Assembly: GCF_014201715.1 (NCBI RefSeq)
Contig: NZ_JACHFD010000001.1
Coordinates: 248,001-312,000 of the forward strand
Source: Haloferula luteola
GTDB lineage: Bacteria; Verrucomicrobiota; Verrucomicrobiia; Verrucomicrobiales; Akkermansiaceae
DNA length: 64,000 nucleotides
Direction of reading: 5' to 3'
Shown here: piece by piece, positions 24,388 to 32,865 of the stretch
Numbering within the stretch: position 1 is the stretch's first letter
How the letters are laid out: each line of letters opens with the position of its first letter
Made by a program: the position numbers and the translations under genes
The notes under the pieces: model-generated
Seen by the model: only the letters and a program-made list of their open reading frames with translations
Told to the model about the DNA's origin: nothing
The model's database searches: none

Positions 24388-25239
24388 ATGGCTGGATTTC
24401 TCCGCTCTCTTTACAATCGGTTCTCCAACACCGCCGAGATCGACTGGGACGATTTGGAAGCCTCCCTCGTCGCCGCCGACCTCGGACCCCGTTTGGCCAT
24501 GAGCTTGGTCGAGGAACTGCGCGATCTCGGCCGCCAAATCACTGCTGACGACGTGGTCGAAATCACCCGTCAACACCTTGCTCAACGCCTCCCTCCCGAT
24601 CTCCCTCCCCCCCTTCCTCCCAGCTCCGACAAGCCCTTCGTCTTCCTCATCGTCGGCGTCAACGGCGTCGGCAAAACCACCACCTGCGCCAAACTCGCTC
24701 ATTGGCTGCAACGTCGCGGATCTCTCACCTACCTCGCCGCGGCCGATACCTTCCGGGCGGCCGCAACCGAGCAACTCCTCCGCTGGGGGCAACGTCTCGA
24801 CATCCCCGTCATCACGGGGCCCGCGAACGCCGACCCCTCCTCCGTCTGCTTCAATGCCCACCAGCAGGCCATTCGCGACGGCGCACGATACCTCATCTGC
24901 GACACCGCAGGCCGGCTCCACAATCGTCACAACCTGATGGAGGAGCTCTCAAAAATCCGCCGAACTCTTGCCAAACAGGATCCCGCCGCACCGCACCTGA
25001 CCCTGTTGGTATTGGACGCTTCCACCGGTAGCAATGCCCTCCAGCAAGCCAAGGAATTTCACAAAGCCTCGCCCCTCGACGGCTTCATCCTCACCAAAAT
25101 GGATGGCTCTGGCAAAGGCGGCGTCGCGGTGGCCATTCACGAGCAACTCGGGATTCCTCCCCGCTTTCTCGGCACGGGTGAAGAACCAGCGGACTTCGCC
25201 CTTTTCCAACGTGCCCGGTTCCTTGAGGACATGATCTGA
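24388..25239 (+). CDS. ftsY: Signal recognition particle receptor FtsY
   Basis: 283-residue SRP GTPase that docks the signal recognition particle and its ribosome at the membrane. NG core: a helical N domain, then G1 VGVNGVGKTTTCAKLA, DTFRAAATEQL, DTAGRLHNRHNL, TKMDGSGKGGVAVAI. The long acidic A domain of E. coli FtsY is absent; a Pro-rich segment (LPPDLPPPLPP) links the N and G domains. The stop shares one base with the next start (TGATG), so the ketosynthase-like gene is translationally coupled to it. Confidence 0.95.
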   Translation: MAGFLRSLYNRFSNTAEIDWDDLEASLVAADLGPRLAMSLVEELRDLGRQITADDVVEITRQHLAQRLPPDLPPPLPPSSDKPFVFLIVGVNGVGKTTTCAKLAHWLQRRGSLTYLAAADTFRAAATEQLLRWGQRLDIPVITGPANADPSSVCFNAHQQAIRDGARYLICDTAGRLHNRHNLMEELSKIRRTLAKQDPAAPHLTLLVLDASTGSNALQQAKEFHKASPLDGFILTKMDGSGKGGVAVAIHEQLGIPPRFLGTGEEPADFALFQRARFLEDMI

Positions 25240-26270
25240 TGGCCCCTTCTCTGACCATCCGCGGCACCGCTTGCCTCACCTGCCTCGGCGATGACCTCGC
25301 CGTTCAGGCTGCGGCTGTGCAGAAAGGCCAATCCGGATTGCGCCCCCTCGCTGAACTCGACGGATCGCCTGCCGACTTCAGCGATCTCCAAGCGGGCTGG
25401 ATTCAGGACCGCTCGCGTTTGGCCCACCGCATCTGGTCTCCCCTTTCCATGGCCGCCCTGATCGTGGCCCAACAGGCCGTCGCCTCCTCAGGCTGGCGCG
25501 ACCTTCATGACGTGCCCATCTTTTTTGCCACCAGCCGAGGATCCGTAGCTGGCGTCCGGGAACCTTGGCCAGGTCGCCGCCCGACTCCTCTCATGACCGC
25601 CAGCAACTCGTTACCCGCGGAACCTGCGGCGGCAATCAGCTCAGAATGGGGCACTCATGCCCCATGGCAAACGGTCTCCAGCGGCTGTTGCGCCGGCCTG
25701 GATGCGCTTCACCTGGCCTCCGTCTGGCTCCGGTCAGGGGAAGCTCAGCGGGCCCTAGTCGTCGCGGCCGATCTCCCCCTCACCCATTCCATCCTTCAGG
25801 ACTACGACACGGCCGGAATCCTCGCCCACGGAGGCGGACTGGGCATGCACCCATCCGAAGGTGCCGCCGCTCTCTGCCTGGAATCGACCCCCTCGGGAGA
25901 AGGACCCGAACTCGTGGAAATGCTCTCACTTTCTGAGCCCGAAGCGCGTTTTGGAGGCAACCGCCCCCTTCCCCTCCTCGCGGAGGCCCTCGCCGGGCTC
26001 GCCTCACGCCACGGCAAACCCGACCTTCTCGTTCCTCACGCCAGCGGAACGGCGAAACATAAAATCCATGAAACCCAAGCCATTGAAGCCGCATGGTCAC
26101 AAGCTCTTCATCTGGCTACCTTCAAACAGGCGACCGGTCACTGCGTCGGCGCTTCCGCGCTGATCGAAGTCGTGCTCGGACTTGAGCTCCTCCCCGCTGC
26201 CTCTTCTCTCCTTAAAATTGCTTCCGCCTTGGGCGGAAAGCATTCTTGCGCTTGGATTCGGCGCTCATGA
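25239..26270 (+). CDS. Beta-ketoacyl synthase-like protein
   Basis: 343-residue thiolase-fold condensing enzyme related to FabB/FabF but about 70 residues shorter. The nucleophile is in VSSGCCAGLDALHLA, the first His in PHASGTAKHKIHETQAIE and the second in FKQATGHCVGASALIE, giving a complete Cys-His-His set. The ending ALGGKHSCAWI replaces FGFGGxNASL of FabF. It lacks an adjacent acyl carrier protein or other fab genes; the housekeeping FabF is at 32920-34173. Its acyl substrate is unknown. It is coupled by overlaps to ftsY before it and to the YkuD-SerB fusion after it (ATGA). Confidence 0.82.
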   Translation: MAPSLTIRGTACLTCLGDDLAVQAAAVQKGQSGLRPLAELDGSPADFSDLQAGWIQDRSRLAHRIWSPLSMAALIVAQQAVASSGWRDLHDVPIFFATSRGSVAGVREPWPGRRPTPLMTASNSLPAEPAAAISSEWGTHAPWQTVSSGCCAGLDALHLASVWLRSGEAQRALVVAADLPLTHSILQDYDTAGILAHGGGLGMHPSEGAAALCLESTPSGEGPELVEMLSLSEPEARFGGNRPLPLLAEALAGLASRHGKPDLLVPHASGTAKHKIHETQAIEAAWSQALHLATFKQATGHCVGASALIEVVLGLELLPAASSLLKIASALGGKHSCAWIRRS

Positions 26271-27376
26271 CATTTCCAAAGCTCCACCTCGAAGTCTCCA
26301 TCGACCACCAGCGGATGGACCTTTTCGAGGACGATCAACTCCTCCGTTCATGGCCCGTCTCCACAGCGGCCCGAGGACAAGGGTGTCAGACCGGGAGTCT
26401 GAGAACTCCCACCGGTAGATTTGTTATCTCCGAAAAAATCGGCGAGGGCTGTGCCCTCCACACTCGATTCATCAGTCGACTCCCCGTCGGCATTTGGGAC
26501 AACACTGAAGCCGGAGACCCCATCCTCTCCCGTATCCTCTGGCTCGATGGTCTAGATGCCGACAATGCCAATACCCACGGACGCTTCATCTACATCCACG
26601 GCACCCACCAGGAATCCCGACTCGGCCACCCTGCGAGTCATGGATGCATCCGAATGGCGAATGCTGACGTTGTCGAACTGTTCGACCGCGTCCCAGTGAA
26701 CACCCCCGTCATCATCCACCCTCCCTCTCTTATGCAAAGAAAGCTCATCTTCTTCGACTGCGATTCGACCCTGTCTACCATCGAGGGCATCGACGAACTC
26801 GCCCGAGCTCAGGGGCCTGAGACCTTTGCCGAGGTCGAAGCTCTCACCCATGCCGCCATGAATGGTGAAGTTCCTATTCATGAAGTTTTCCCACGCCGGA
26901 TGGAGATCATTCGCCCCAACAAGGCACTTTGTGATCAGATCGCACAAACTTACGTAGAGACCCTTACCGAAGGTGTCACAGAGGTCATTCGTCGTCTTCA
27001 GGCGGATGATTGGACCGTTATCATCCTCTCAGGAGGCTTCAAACCACTCATCGAACCCCTCGCTTCCGCCCTAGGTATCGAACATGTCGAAGCCGTCCCT
27101 TTAGTCTTCGACAATCACGGAGAATACCTCGACTACGGCAGAGATTACCCCACCACCCGCAACGGGGGCAAACCCCAGATAATCAAAGACTGGCGTATCG
27201 CCACTCACGCAGCTCACACCATCATGGTCGGCGATGGAATCTCCGATTTGGAGAGTCGCCAGGAATGCGATTTGTTCATTGGTTTTGGGGGTGTTGTGGT
27301 CCGAAAAGCCGTCCAAGAACAGGCCGACTACTACATATCCAGTATGTCAGATTTCCCATTCGACGCACTTCCCTGA
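26267..27376 (+). CDS. Fusion of L,D-transpeptidase (YkuD) and phosphoserine phosphatase-like HAD domain
   Basis: 369-residue two-domain protein in one uninterrupted frame. Residues 1-155 are a YkuD domain: TPTGRFVI and the active-site FIYIHGT...PASHGCIRMANAD with catalytic His and Cys. Residues 156-369 are a SerB-type HAD phosphatase: LIFFDCDSTLSTIEGIDELA, VIILSGGFKPLIEPLA, a Lys in GGKPQIIKDW and IMVGDGISDLES. There is no signal peptide, so the YkuD part looks cytoplasmic unless exported in an unusual way. The HAD part begins with an in-frame ATG at 26732 that could allow separate synthesis, but no Shine-Dalgarno precedes it. Start ATG 26267 overlaps the ketosynthase stop. Confidence 0.9.
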   Translation: MTFPKLHLEVSIDHQRMDLFEDDQLLRSWPVSTAARGQGCQTGSLRTPTGRFVISEKIGEGCALHTRFISRLPVGIWDNTEAGDPILSRILWLDGLDADNANTHGRFIYIHGTHQESRLGHPASHGCIRMANADVVELFDRVPVNTPVIIHPPSLMQRKLIFFDCDSTLSTIEGIDELARAQGPETFAEVEALTHAAMNGEVPIHEVFPRRMEIIRPNKALCDQIAQTYVETLTEGVTEVIRRLQADDWTVIILSGGFKPLIEPLASALGIEHVEAVPLVFDNHGEYLDYGRDYPTTRNGGKPQIIKDWRIATHAAHTIMVGDGISDLESRQECDLFIGFGGVVVRKAVQEQADYYISSMSDFPFDALP

Positions 27377-27913: not shown

Positions 27914-28417
27914 TCAGTCCGGAATCGTCACCCCTTCGGTCACTTCCCGCCAGACCAGCTCTTCACCTTGGAAGACGAATCGACCCAAAAATGTCTGCTC
28001 CATTAAGAGCAGCGGGAGCCAAAAGCGATCGTCGCTCCACATTCTCTCATAGGGAATCTCCTCGATCGGCACCCATAGCGGTACCGCCTCCTCCGTTTCC
28101 TCAGGGGTGCCCGTGAAGTCCTCGGCGCGGTAAACATGGCACAGGATATCAGGGAAGTCAGACATCGAAAAATGCAGCTCCCCGAGCTTCCGGGGCTCAA
28201 GAACTCGGATTCTCAGCTCTTCTTCCGTTTCCCGGAGAGCGCACTCCAACGGGGACTCTCCGGGATCGATCTTGCCCCCGGGACCATTGATCTTCCCTGC
28301 TCCCAGGCCTCGCTTCTTCTCAATCAATAGGATCTGACCGTCCCGGATCACGAACATCAATGTCGCGTGAACCGGGGCGGACCAAATTGCCCAATCCATC
28401 GGAGCCGCTTCCATCAT
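27914..28417 (-). CDS. Nudix hydrolase, MutT/MTH1-like
   Basis: 167-residue hydrolase of nucleoside diphosphate-linked compounds. The Nudix box is complete: [22 protein letters not shown], that is G-x5-E-x7-R-E-x-x-E-E. Flanking sequence ([30 protein letters not shown]) resembles MTH1-type 8-oxo-dGTP hydrolases, which clean oxidised nucleotides. Its ATG overlaps the end of gcvP by four bases, so it is the last gene of the glycine cleavage transcript; a functional link with glycine metabolism is not obvious. Confidence 0.88.
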
Positions 28418-31248
28418 CCAGCAGAGGCGGCTGCGTAGGCTTCCACACTATCGCAGGTGCATACCAAATTTCGGTCGCCGGCCACGTTGTCGATACGCCC
28501 AATCGAAGGCCAAAACTTGTGTTGGCGTTGTCCAGGCAGCGGATAAGCAGCCTGCTCTCTGCTATAGGAGTGCCCCCAATCGTCCGAACAAACGTCTTCT
28601 GCCGGGTGCGGGGCGTTCTTGAGGACGTTGTCTTGAGCATCCGCCTCACCATTGACCACCGCCATGATCTCACCGTGAATGGAGACCATGGCATCGCAGA
28701 ATCGATCCAATTCCATCTTCGATTCCGATTCGGTCGGCTCAATCATCAGGGTTCCCGCAACAGGCCAGCTCATTGTCGGTGCATGATAGCCATAATCCAT
28801 GAGCCGCTTGGCGACATCTTCCACGGTGATCCCGGATTTCGCCGAAAGCGGGCGGACGTCGATGATGCACTCGTGCGCCACCAAACCGTCCTGACCCGTG
28901 TAAAGAATCGGGAAATGATGCTTCAAGCGGCTTGCCACGTAGTTCGCATTGAGGATCGCCACTTGGGTCGCTTCCGTCAGCCCCTCCGCCCCCATCATGA
29001 TGATGTACATCCACGAAATGGTGTTGATGGATGCGCTACCCCAAGCCGCGGAACACACGGTTCCTGCAGTGTCCGCCAAAGTTTCGTGACCCGGAAGATA
29101 CGGCAGGAGATGCGCGGCCACTCCGATCGGTCCTACCCCCGGCCCTCCACCCCCGTGTGGGATGCAGAAAGTCTTGTGGAGGTTCAAGTGACAGACATCC
29201 GCCCCAATATGCCCAGGGCTCGTCAAACCCACCTGAGCATTCATGTTGGCACCATCCATGTAGACTTGGCCACCAGCCGCATGCACACGCTCGCAAATGT
29301 CGATGATCGTGTCCTCAAACACACCGTGAGTCGAAGGATAGGTCACCATCAGCGCAGAGACCCGATCAGCATGAGCGTCGATCTGCTTCTGCAGATCGGC
29401 CACATCGATATTTCCCTCATCATCGCATTTCACCCCCACCACTTTCATCCCCGCCATCACTGCCGACGCCGGATTGGTACCATGTGCCGAAAGGGGAATC
29501 AGGCAAACGTCTCGCTGATGATCACCGCGATCGAGGTGATAGCGGCGAATCGCCAGCAAACCGGCATACTCTCCTTGAGATCCCGCATTGGGTTGGAGGG
29601 AAACTCCCGCAAACCCGGTGATCTCAGCCAGCCAACCTTCCAATTGATTCAACATCTCGCGATACCCCTCACTTTGTTCCGCAGGAACGAAGGGGTGAAT
29701 CGAGCCCACTTCCGCCCAACTCAGAGGCAGCATCTCGGAAGTCGCATTAAGCTTCATCGTACAAGACCCCAAAGGAATCATCGACTCATTGAGTGCCAGA
29801 TCCTTGGACTCAAGACGCTTGATATAGCGAAGCATCTCCGTCTCCGTGTGATAGCGGTTGAAGACCTGCTGGGTCAGAATCTCGGACTCGCGAGCCAAGG
29901 AGGCTTCCCAACCGCCCGCTGCCGGTTCGAGATCGACGTATTCCACGCCCAGAGCACGACAAATCGGCTTCAAATCCTCAGCCAAGGTCGTCTCGTCCAG
30001 ACTGATCCCCACTCGACCTTCGTCCAACCGACGCAAATTGTATCCTTCGAGCGCCGCCATCCGGACCACCGTGTCGCTTTGGGGCACCTCAACGACCAAA
30101 GTGTCGAAAAACTGCTCGGTCGTGACCTTCAGCCCGCCGTTCACCAAAGCAGCCTTGAGGGCTCCGGTGAGGGAATGCACGCGCTGGGCGATGTTCTTGA
30201 GTCCTTCGGGGCCATGGTAGACCGCATACATCGAGGCCATCACCGCCAGTAGGACCTGTGCAGTACAGATATTGGACGTCGCCTTGTCGCGGCGAATGTG
30301 CTGCTCGCGAGTCTGCAGAGAAAGGCGGAAGCCCGGACGTCCCTTGTCGTCGTGGGAAACCCCGATGATCCGTCCTGGAAGCTTACGTTTCAGGGCATCC
30401 GAGCACGCCATGAAGGCGGCATGAGGACCGCCAAAGCCCATCGGGACACCCAAGCGCTGGCTGCTCCCCAGGCAAATATCTGCGCCGAACTCGCCCGGAG
30501 CCTTGAGTAAGGTGAGGGCCAACAAATCTGCGGCCACCACGGCCAAACCCTGGGCCGCGTGCACTTTCTCAAAGAAGCTCGCGAAATCACACACTTCTCC
30601 GCAAGTATCCGGATATTGGACCAAGGCGGCGAAGAAGCCTTCGACCTGGCTGGGTTCGAAACTCCGCCAATCTCCTGACACAATTTCGATGCCCAGGGGC
30701 TCCGCGCGAGTCCGCACCACATCGACCGTCTGCGGGTGGCAGGCGTCAGAAACAAACATCACCTTTCCCTTGGGCTTTCCGGAGAGGGCCAAGCTCATGG
30801 CTTCCGCGGCTGCAGTGCCCTCATCCAACAAGGAAGCATTGGCAACGGGCAAGCCGGTAAGACTCGTCACCATCGTCTGGAAGTTCAACAGCGCCTCCAA
30901 TCGACCTTGGGCAATCTCAGCCTGATACGGCGTGTAGGCCGTATACCAACCGGGATTCTCCAGAATGTTGCGCTGAATCACGCCAGGTACCCATGTGCCG
31001 TAGTAGCCTTGGCCAATGAAGCTCTTCAGCACCTGGTTGCGGCTCATGATACCGCGGAGTTGATGCAAAGCAGCCGTTTCAGAAAGCGGGCCAGGCAGAT
31101 CAAGCGGCCGTGTCGACCGGATCGAATTCGGCACCGCTCGGTCGATCAGGGCGTCAAGAGTTTCGAATCCAGTGGCTTCCAGAAGGGAAGCGCGATCGGC
31201 TCCGATGGAACCGAGGTGCCGAGTGGCAAATGTGTCGTGCAGGGACAT
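28414..31248 (-). CDS. gcvP: Glycine dehydrogenase (aminomethyl-transferring), P protein
   Basis: 944-residue single-chain P protein that decarboxylates glycine and passes the aminomethyl group to lipoyl-GcvH. N-terminal half: [43 protein letters not shown]-terminal half: [19 protein letters not shown]-like [15 protein letters not shown] and the PLP Lys in [17 protein letters not shown]. Length is typical for the fused type. The ATG at 31246-31248 lies only 15 bases after a terminator-like hairpin at 31264-31298, so gcvP expression may depend on read-through from gcvT-gcvH or on its own start. Confidence 0.97.
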
Positions 31249-31263
31249 GTCGGTGGTGGAAAC

Positions 31264-31298
31264 AAAAAGCCGCCACCCCGGATGGACGGGGTCGCGGC
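31264..31298 (-). terminator. Terminator-like hairpin between gcvH and gcvP
   Basis: On the minus strand a GC-rich stem of about 12 bp with one mismatch (arms 31287-31298 and 31269-31280) closes a 6-base loop and is followed by five T (31264-31268). It starts 20 bases after the gcvH stop and ends 15 bases before the gcvP ATG. It can act as a partial terminator that sets the gcvP:gcvTH ratio. Confidence 0.8.
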
Positions 31299-31317
31299 GA
31301 AATCCAGGTTCAAGCCT

Positions 31318-31695
31318 TCATCCAATCAGGGCGCGGTATCCTTCCGCATCCAAGAGAGCATCCAATTGAGAGGCATCTTTGATCTTCAGTTTGAAGATCC
31401 ATCCCGAACCATAAGGATCGGTATTGACCAGGGAGGGATCGGCCTCAACCGCATCATTGACCTCGATGACTTCTCCGGAGATCGGGGCGTAGATATCACT
31501 TGCAGCTTTCACCGATTCGACCACGGCCGTCGGATCGCCGGCATCCACCGCTCGACCCATTTGCGGCAGCTCGACAAAGACCACGTCCGTCAACTCCTCC
31601 TGCGCGTGGTCGGAGATGCCCACCACGGCTGTATCGCCCTCAAGGCGGACCCATTCGTGGGAGCTTTGGAATCGCAGGTCATCAGGAACATTCAT
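31318..31695 (-). CDS. gcvH: Glycine cleavage system H protein
   Basis: 125-residue lipoyl carrier that shuttles the aminomethyl intermediate between GcvP and GcvT. Lipoyl-Lys segment [19 protein letters not shown], preceded by [20 protein letters not shown] and followed by [13 protein letters not shown]. Full length. The start ATG is at 31693-31695, 14 bases after gcvT. The lipoyl group is probably made through LipB encoded at 17271-17894. Confidence 0.97.
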
Positions 31696-31709
31696 TGGCT
31701 ATATTTGGC

Positions 31710-32798
31710 TTAGGCCGGGATGGTGGTTGGTTTGTAAAAAGGCTTCTTAACAACTTGGGCGGGAAAGCGGCGGCCTCGAACATCAATCCAGACCTCGGTG
31801 CCCGGTTTCGTGAACGCGATGGGCAAGTAGGCCATTCCGATCCCCTTTCCGAGGCTCGGTGAAAGCACCCCGCTGGCCAACTCTCCCAGCACTTCACCAT
31901 CAGCATCCGTCACCGGATAATGAGAGCGTGGCGGAGCACCTTTTTCAAGATATTCAATCCCGACAAGTCGCTGATCCAGACCCTCTTTCTTCTGCGCCAC
32001 CATGGCGTCTCGCCCGACAAAATCGCCCTTGTCCAACGCGACAAAAAATCCAAGTCCGGCCTCAAGGGGCGTCCGCTCCGGAGAGAGATCGCTGCCATTC
32101 AGTGGATATCCCATCTCCAGGCGCAAACTATCGCGGGCACCCAGTCCACAAGGCGTGGCTCCCGCCTCCATGAATCGCTGAAAAATCGCACACGCCGACT
32201 CGCTCGCACAAAACAGCTCGAATCCATCTTCGCCGGTATAACCGGTTCGGCAGACGATCGATCCATCCGCCAACCGTGCCAGTCCGTTGCGCGATGGTAG
32301 CTCTTCCCCAGGAAATGCGCTGGCAAACGCAGCCGAAGCCTCAGGGCCCTGAATGGCCATCCCGGCCCACTGGGAGCTTTCATCCGAAAACTCCACCTCT
32401 CCTTGCAAATGGGAGGTCATCCAGGAGGCGTCTTCCGCCACTTTCGACGCATTCACCACCAGAAAATACCGCTCGGGAGATTCCCGATAGACAATCAAAT
32501 CGTCAATCACCCCACCCTGCTCATTCAGCAAGAAAGTGTACTGCCCGGTGCCGTCGCTCAACTTGCCAAGGTCATTCGCGAGGAGGCCATTCAGCCAACT
32601 TCCCGCATCCGCACCCGTGACAACAAATTGTCCCATGTGGGAAATGTCAAAAACACCGACCGCCGACCTCACCGCTTGGTGTTCGGTTAAGATCGAGGAA
32701 TACATCACAGGCATGTTCCACCCGGCAAAGGGGACCAAACGCCCGCCGAGTTCGAGGTGGAGATCTTCCAGAGGAGAACAGAGCAATTCGTCGGACAC
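31710..32798 (-). CDS. gcvT: Glycine cleavage system T protein (aminomethyltransferase)
   Basis: 362-residue tetrahydrofolate-dependent enzyme that releases ammonia and methylene-THF from aminomethyl-GcvH. Motifs: LGGRLVPFAGWNMPVMYSS, VGVFDISHMGQF, RTGYTGEDGFELFC, DSLRLEMGYPLNGSDLSPE. I chose GTG at 32796-32798 as start because the family sequence begins a few residues later (MSDELLCSPLEDLHLELGG); a TTG at 32834 is possible. First gene of gcvT-gcvH-gcvP-nudix; I see no glycine riboswitch in the short gap before it. Confidence 0.95.
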   Translation of the reverse strand: MSDELLCSPLEDLHLELGGRLVPFAGWNMPVMYSSILTEHQAVRSAVGVFDISHMGQFVVTGADAGSWLNGLLANDLGKLSDGTGQYTFLLNEQGGVIDDLIVYRESPERYFLVVNASKVAEDASWMTSHLQGEVEFSDESSQWAGMAIQGPEASAAFASAFPGEELPSRNGLARLADGSIVCRTGYTGEDGFELFCASESACAIFQRFMEAGATPCGLGARDSLRLEMGYPLNGSDLSPERTPLEAGLGFFVALDKGDFVGRDAMVAQKKEGLDQRLVGIEYLEKGAPPRSHYPVTDADGEVLGELASGVLSPSLGKGIGMAYLPIAFTKPGTEVWIDVRGRRFPAQVVKKPFYKPTTIPA

Positions 32799-32865
32799 GG
32801 CGGCAAAAGTGGTGAGCCGACTTGAAAAAGTCAATGGAACCGGGGCTTTGCGGCCTCCGCATACG

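Follow-up and report, generated by a model that had tools for sequence, protein, structure and literature searches.

A leaderless ElsL-like YkuD domain fused to a SerB-type phosphatase in Haloferula luteola and its relatives

The initial annotation of a 64,000-nucleotide stretch of the Haloferula luteola genome (GCF_014201715.1, contig NZ_JACHFD010000001.1, positions 248,001 to 312,000), hereafter called the window, drew attention to one gene that joins a YkuD domain to a phosphatase of the SerB type. The join was presented as a paradox of compartments, with YkuD enzymes acting on peptidoglycan outside the membrane and SerB acting on phosphoserine in the cytoplasm. The locus raises the question of where such a protein would work, what each half would do and how the two came to be joined.

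The fusion gene is a single uninterrupted open frame of 369 aa (26267-27376, + strand). The claim that this one frame holds a complete YkuD domain and a complete SerB-type phosphatase was borne out by Pfam and NCBIfam matches. In the window protein, Pfam placed YkuD at residues 7-150 (E 6.8e-24) and HAD at residues 161-329 (E 8.9e-15). The nearest NCBIfam families were ElsL for the first half and SerB for the second. The ElsL model NF040925, which is a model of type 'exception', gave 92.8 bits on the YkuD half, far under its cut-off of 270. On the HAD half, TIGR00338 (serB) gave 118.8 bits over residues 155-357, below its cut-off of 144.15, and TIGR01488 gave 70.3 bits, above its cut-off of 45. 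An AlphaFold2 model of the fusion protein (pLDDT 96.8, pTM 0.92) suggests two domains in a defined arrangement. Both halves are under purifying selection (dN/dS about 0.09-0.31). The features of the locus are given in Table 1.

Table 1. Features of the fusion locus, in window coordinates
Feature	Position (nt)	Strand	Basis or remark
ftsY, first gene of run	24388..25239	+	TIGR00064 284.4 bits, cut-off 260.7
Ketosynthase-like gene	25239..26270	+	Overlaps fusion gene by ATGA
Fusion gene, leaderless ElsL-like YkuD and SerB-type HAD phosphatase, 369 aa	26267..27376	+	Domain matches; fusion conserved in relatives
YkuD domain, residues 7-150	26285..26716	+	Pfam PF03734
Catalytic-type His111	26597-26599	+	
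Catalytic-type Cys127, in SHGCIR	26645-26647	+	
Interdomain linker	26717..26740	+	Consensus PPtRkRGKLIFF in relatives; non-conserved ATG 26732 inside
SerB-type HAD phosphatase, residues about 159-360	26741..27346	+	TIGR00338, human PSP match, residues, fold
HAD key residues D164, D166, E173, R211, S255, K302, D323, D327		+	
Small conserved protein of about 110 aa	27462..27794	+	Downstream of fused and separate elsL-serB pairs
NUDIX gene and glycine cleavage genes gcvP, gcvH, gcvT	27914-32834	-	Convergent to fusion run

A search for the same architecture across Verrucomicrobiota had been proposed, and it was positive within the family. Sixty genomes of the family were scanned, and the state of each was counted by hand from locus coordinates. 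A fused gene was found in 17/60, namely 7/7 genomes of the window's genus, 6/6 of genus g10 and 4/5 of genus g13. The genes are separate and adjacent or overlapping in 17/60, about 1 kb apart in 1 more and non-adjacent in 13/60. The phosphatase is missing from 12/60 (genera g3 and g16, G013 and the incomplete G020). No further fusion was listed among 241 genomes of the phylum outside the family; where both domains were found, they were apart. A scan of named genomes found the fusion in 13 named records and at least 16 loci, a lower bound because exact peptide patterns were used; other phyla may still carry the architecture. Named carriers include Luteolibacter marinus NBU1238 (L050), L. pohnpeiensis (L052), Verrucomicrobiaceae bacterium E54 (L044) and Akkermansiaceae bacterium UBA1315 (L043). 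An assembly artefact or frameshift, including a YkuD domain peculiar to one genome, was ruled out because the fusion recurs in these family genomes and named records. The sequence itself contains no stop or frameshift near 26700-26740, where one would have refuted the initial annotation. We found no YkuD-HAD or YkuD-SerB fusion in the open-access papers searched; the architecture is apparently undescribed, and both of its parts are known families.

The origin of the fusion was approached through the separate genes and through trees. In the sister genus g8 (L019-L021), both genes lie in one frame, and all that stands between them is a stop (TGA or TAA) and two codons ahead of the HAD ATG; loss of the stop in this arrangement would result in a fusion. 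In a tree made from the concatenated alignment, which leaves out the degenerate L026, the fused sequences form one side of a branch with support of 99/99. A tree of the YkuD domain only has four changes of fusion state on weak branches and does not resolve a single origin. The concatenated tree indicates that the fusion arose once, from neighbouring genes. The pairs that are adjacent or overlapping in 17 family genomes, and the g8 arrangement, are taken as the ancestral state. Two housekeeping genes that stood side by side and were probably co-transcribed would have lost the stop between them, and the resulting fusion would then have been retained.

The surroundings of the gene were also compared. 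Coupling by overlap to a ketosynthase-like gene and ftsY, as first described, was confirmed: the start codon of the fusion shares the ATGA at 26267-26270 with the stop codon of the ketosynthase-like gene, which in turn overlaps ftsY at 25239. The position upstream of the fusion is held by a ketosynthase-like gene in g1 and g13 relatives and by a class V aminotransferase in g10 (directly upstream in L004, L012, L014 and others). The best NCBIfam match of the window's ketosynthase-like gene reached 39 bits, far below all cut-offs, and Cys-His-His motifs are present. The small protein downstream of the fusion matched no family in a Pfam search and has a helix-turn-helix-like stretch (AASKKFKISPLTISGWL). 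The arrangement of NUDIX, gcvP, gcvH and gcvT is common to many fused loci and places serine beside glycine metabolism.

The compartment paradox largely dissolved. By direct reading, the N-terminus of the fusion protein (MTFPKLHLEVSID) has no signal peptide or membrane anchor, as had been stated. The premise that YkuD enzymes act only outside the membrane did not hold, since a leaderless cytoplasmic YkuD protein, ElsL of Acinetobacter baumannii, cleaves the disaccharide-tetrapeptide to the tripeptide and acts as an L,D-carboxypeptidase, not a transpeptidase, in cell-wall recycling (PMC8649774). ElsL orthologues were reported in all orders of Verrucomicrobia by a survey that dropped proteins >200 aa (PMC8649774). 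Like the fusion, ElsL (LdtK; NF040925) has a YkuD domain without a leader, about 150 aa long and with a Cys-His active site, and its genome, like the window genome, has Mpl without LdcA and a second, exported YkuD alongside. The fusion differs from ElsL in its attached phosphatase and in its score under the cut-off of the ElsL model.

This score required care. The window genome keeps one separate, exported-type lipoprotein YkuD paralogue, L002, which reached 104.9 bits on the ElsL model. Because L002 outscores the fused domain, the model is unable to separate cytoplasmic from exported members, and its score was dropped as proof of cytoplasmic function. The ElsL-like assignment rests instead on the absent leader, the clade and the context. 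In the tree, the leaderless and fused group was split from lipobox-bearing paralogues at 100/100; two Akkermansia-type sequences of the lipobox clade (L105 and L109) were labelled leaderless by pattern despite an evident lipobox (LVSC). The export signal of a secreted L,D-transpeptidase is absent from the fusion protein, and the exported role falls to paralogues of the L002 type, which could have either transpeptidase or carboxypeptidase activity. All relatives compared (54/54) retain the catalytic-type His and Cys. Many fused relatives have Cys, Trp or Glu instead of His as the second residue of SHGC, and SCGC is frequent.

The recycling genes of the family point in the same direction. Mpl was above its cut-off in the window genome and in 55/60 family genomes overall, and a search for LdcA in the same 60 genomes found it absent from 59/60, the window genome included. 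With Mpl present and LdcA absent, the L,D-carboxypeptidase step needs another enzyme. Judging from these sequence data, the activity of the YkuD half is probably that of an L,D-carboxypeptidase rather than an L,D-transpeptidase, and the latter name, as given to the activity at first, is probably wrong. Two ways out of the paradox had been offered. The first, a cytoplasmic role for the YkuD half on precursors, is the best fit, with muropeptide recycling by a leaderless YkuD protein already published (PMC8649774). The second, export of the phosphatase to the wall, found no support, given the absent leader and the leaderless and fused clade that stands apart from the lipoproteins; the phosphoserine phosphatase (PSP) pocket is also intact.

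For the HAD half, the motifs DxDxT, S, K and GDxxxD are all intact in the fusion protein. E173 and R211, the equivalents of the substrate-binding E20 and R56 of M. jannaschii PSP, are kept in 70/71 relatives; the positions were registered through the alignment with human PSP. Among solved structures, human PSP is the closest both by sequence (127 bits) and by fold (E 4.2e-20). Like SerB and human PSPH (TIGR00338; 1l8l, 6hyy), the HAD half has the full HAD-IB fold, all motifs, and the Glu and Arg. Unlike them, it carries a YkuD domain where longer bacterial SerB proteins have ACT domains, and it falls under the serB cut-off, which was passed in 0/60 family genomes. A check for another serB found no second SerB-like gene in the window genome, leaving the fusion as the only SerB-like place.

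The rest of the serine pathway is partly recognizable. SerA is above its cut-off in the window genome, and canonical SerC was not found there. A class V aminotransferase of the window genome is 73% identical to the g10 gene directly upstream of the fusion and may be a SerC substitute, with other class V enzymes as its best family matches. Genera g3 and g16 and G013 have no SerB-type HAD. SerA is present without a SerB-type HAD in g16 and G013; thus, SerA and the HAD are not strictly linked, and the serine pathway in those genomes must use something else.

One relative offers a view of what follows when the phosphatase is lost. In G053 (L026:1486-2619), M has taken the place of the nucleophilic D in the fused HAD and almost none of the other key residues remain, with the frame intact. 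An AlphaFold model of L026 retains the fold (pLDDT 85.5), from an alignment dominated by intact relatives. In the serB search, G053 was the only one of the 60 genomes with a ThrH match (L118; 300.7 bits, cut-off 133). ThrH (TIGR02137) is a phosphoserine phosphatase/homoserine phosphotransferase that is expected to perform the same reaction and is stand-alone and distant in sequence. In Pseudomonas aeruginosa, ThrH acts as a phosphoserine phosphatase according to work cited in PMC5764234. The simplest reading of this single case is that ThrH replaced the lost PSP in G053.

Taken together, the fusion protein is likely a bifunctional cytoplasmic enzyme that combines a predicted ElsL-like L,D-carboxypeptidase with a predicted phosphoserine phosphatase. 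The YkuD half, with its Cys-His active site, would act on murein tetrapeptides, imported or free, and strip their terminal D-alanine, and the resulting tripeptides would be ligated back onto UDP-MurNAc by Mpl. The HAD half would be the organism's phosphoserine phosphatase and would carry out the last step to L-serine after SerA and the class V aminotransferase. The two halves most likely work independently.

Other readings of the protein were weighed against this one. A genuine L,D-transpeptidase activity of the YkuD half, or an exchange activity that loads non-canonical D-amino acids onto precursors, is rather unlikely. The active site of this half is intact, and proteins of the YkuD family can perform either reaction, which similarity alone cannot distinguish; however, the protein has no leader, its clade lies apart from the lipoprotein paralogues, and this reading leaves the L,D-carboxypeptidase step unfilled in a genome with Mpl and without LdcA. 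The leaderless ElsL is, moreover, a carboxypeptidase and not a transpeptidase (PMC8649774). Whether one polypeptide or two are made was also considered, since an internal start at 26732 had been proposed for checking. An in-frame ATG does sit there, exactly where a stand-alone phosphatase would begin, but it is not conserved. The join in fused proteins reads PPtRkRGKLIFFDCDSTL, with the ATG present in the window only, and L018, with an ATG four codons upstream, is the only one of 29 other fused loci to have one no more than five codons from the start of the HAD. A Shine-Dalgarno-like stretch is also absent before ATG 26732 (CCTCCCTCTCTTATG). An internal start was ruled out as a general feature on these two grounds, and the production of two polypeptides in practice, with the phosphatase made from this ATG, is highly improbable.

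The substrate of the HAD half might be different from phosphoserine. Fitness data have led to the proposal that several bacterial genes with a PSP annotation function in the synthesis of histidine (PMC5764234), and this precedent, together with a score under the serB equivalog cut-off, is compatible with a phosphatase for histidinol phosphate or another amino-alcohol phosphate. We consider this quite unlikely, given that the genome has SerA and no SerB-like gene apart from the fusion, that the Arg binding the serine carboxylate is kept whereas histidinol has no carboxylate, and that the dead HAD copy is accompanied by ThrH. The stand-alone relative L019 scored only 23.9 bits, against a cut-off of 400, on the one histidinol-phosphatase model that it meets. 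A recruitment of the HAD half to wall recycling, for example as a MupP-like MurNAc-6-phosphate phosphatase, would put both halves in one pathway. The fusion and the long-standing proximity to an ElsL-like gene agree with such a role, MupP is a HAD phosphatase already serving wall recycling (PMC5371407), and a PSP-like HAD is joined to an unrelated enzyme elsewhere, in the matched Dunaliella GPDH (6iuy), which differs in partner and pathway. Against this, MupP is of the HAD_2/Gph type (PMC5371407), whereas the fused domain is of the HAD-IB type, has PSP as its closest match in both sequence and fold, and retains the Glu and Arg that bind serine. The MupP pathway also needs AnmK, the maker of MurNAc-6P, which is absent from the window genome and from 59/60, and ThrH was gained where the active site was lost. 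A MurNAc-6P phosphatase was rejected on the absence of AnmK and the HAD type, and recruitment to wall recycling as a whole is very unlikely. It is also unlikely that the fusion is a regulatory link, in which rigidly packed domains affect each other and co-tune wall recycling and serine synthesis, and in which the dead HAD of G053 is now purely regulatory or stabilising for the carboxypeptidase.

G053, with its dead HAD and ThrH as a replacement, offers a natural experiment on the role of the fused phosphatase. Annotation pipelines can be expected to call the protein either L,D-transpeptidase or SerB and to miss the other half. The leaderless ElsL-like YkuD proteins extend to a fused form in a whole verrucomicrobial clade, which was discarded by the 200-aa limit of the earlier survey. 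For the family, the fusion probably accounts for the missing L,D-carboxypeptidase as well as for the phosphoserine phosphatase.
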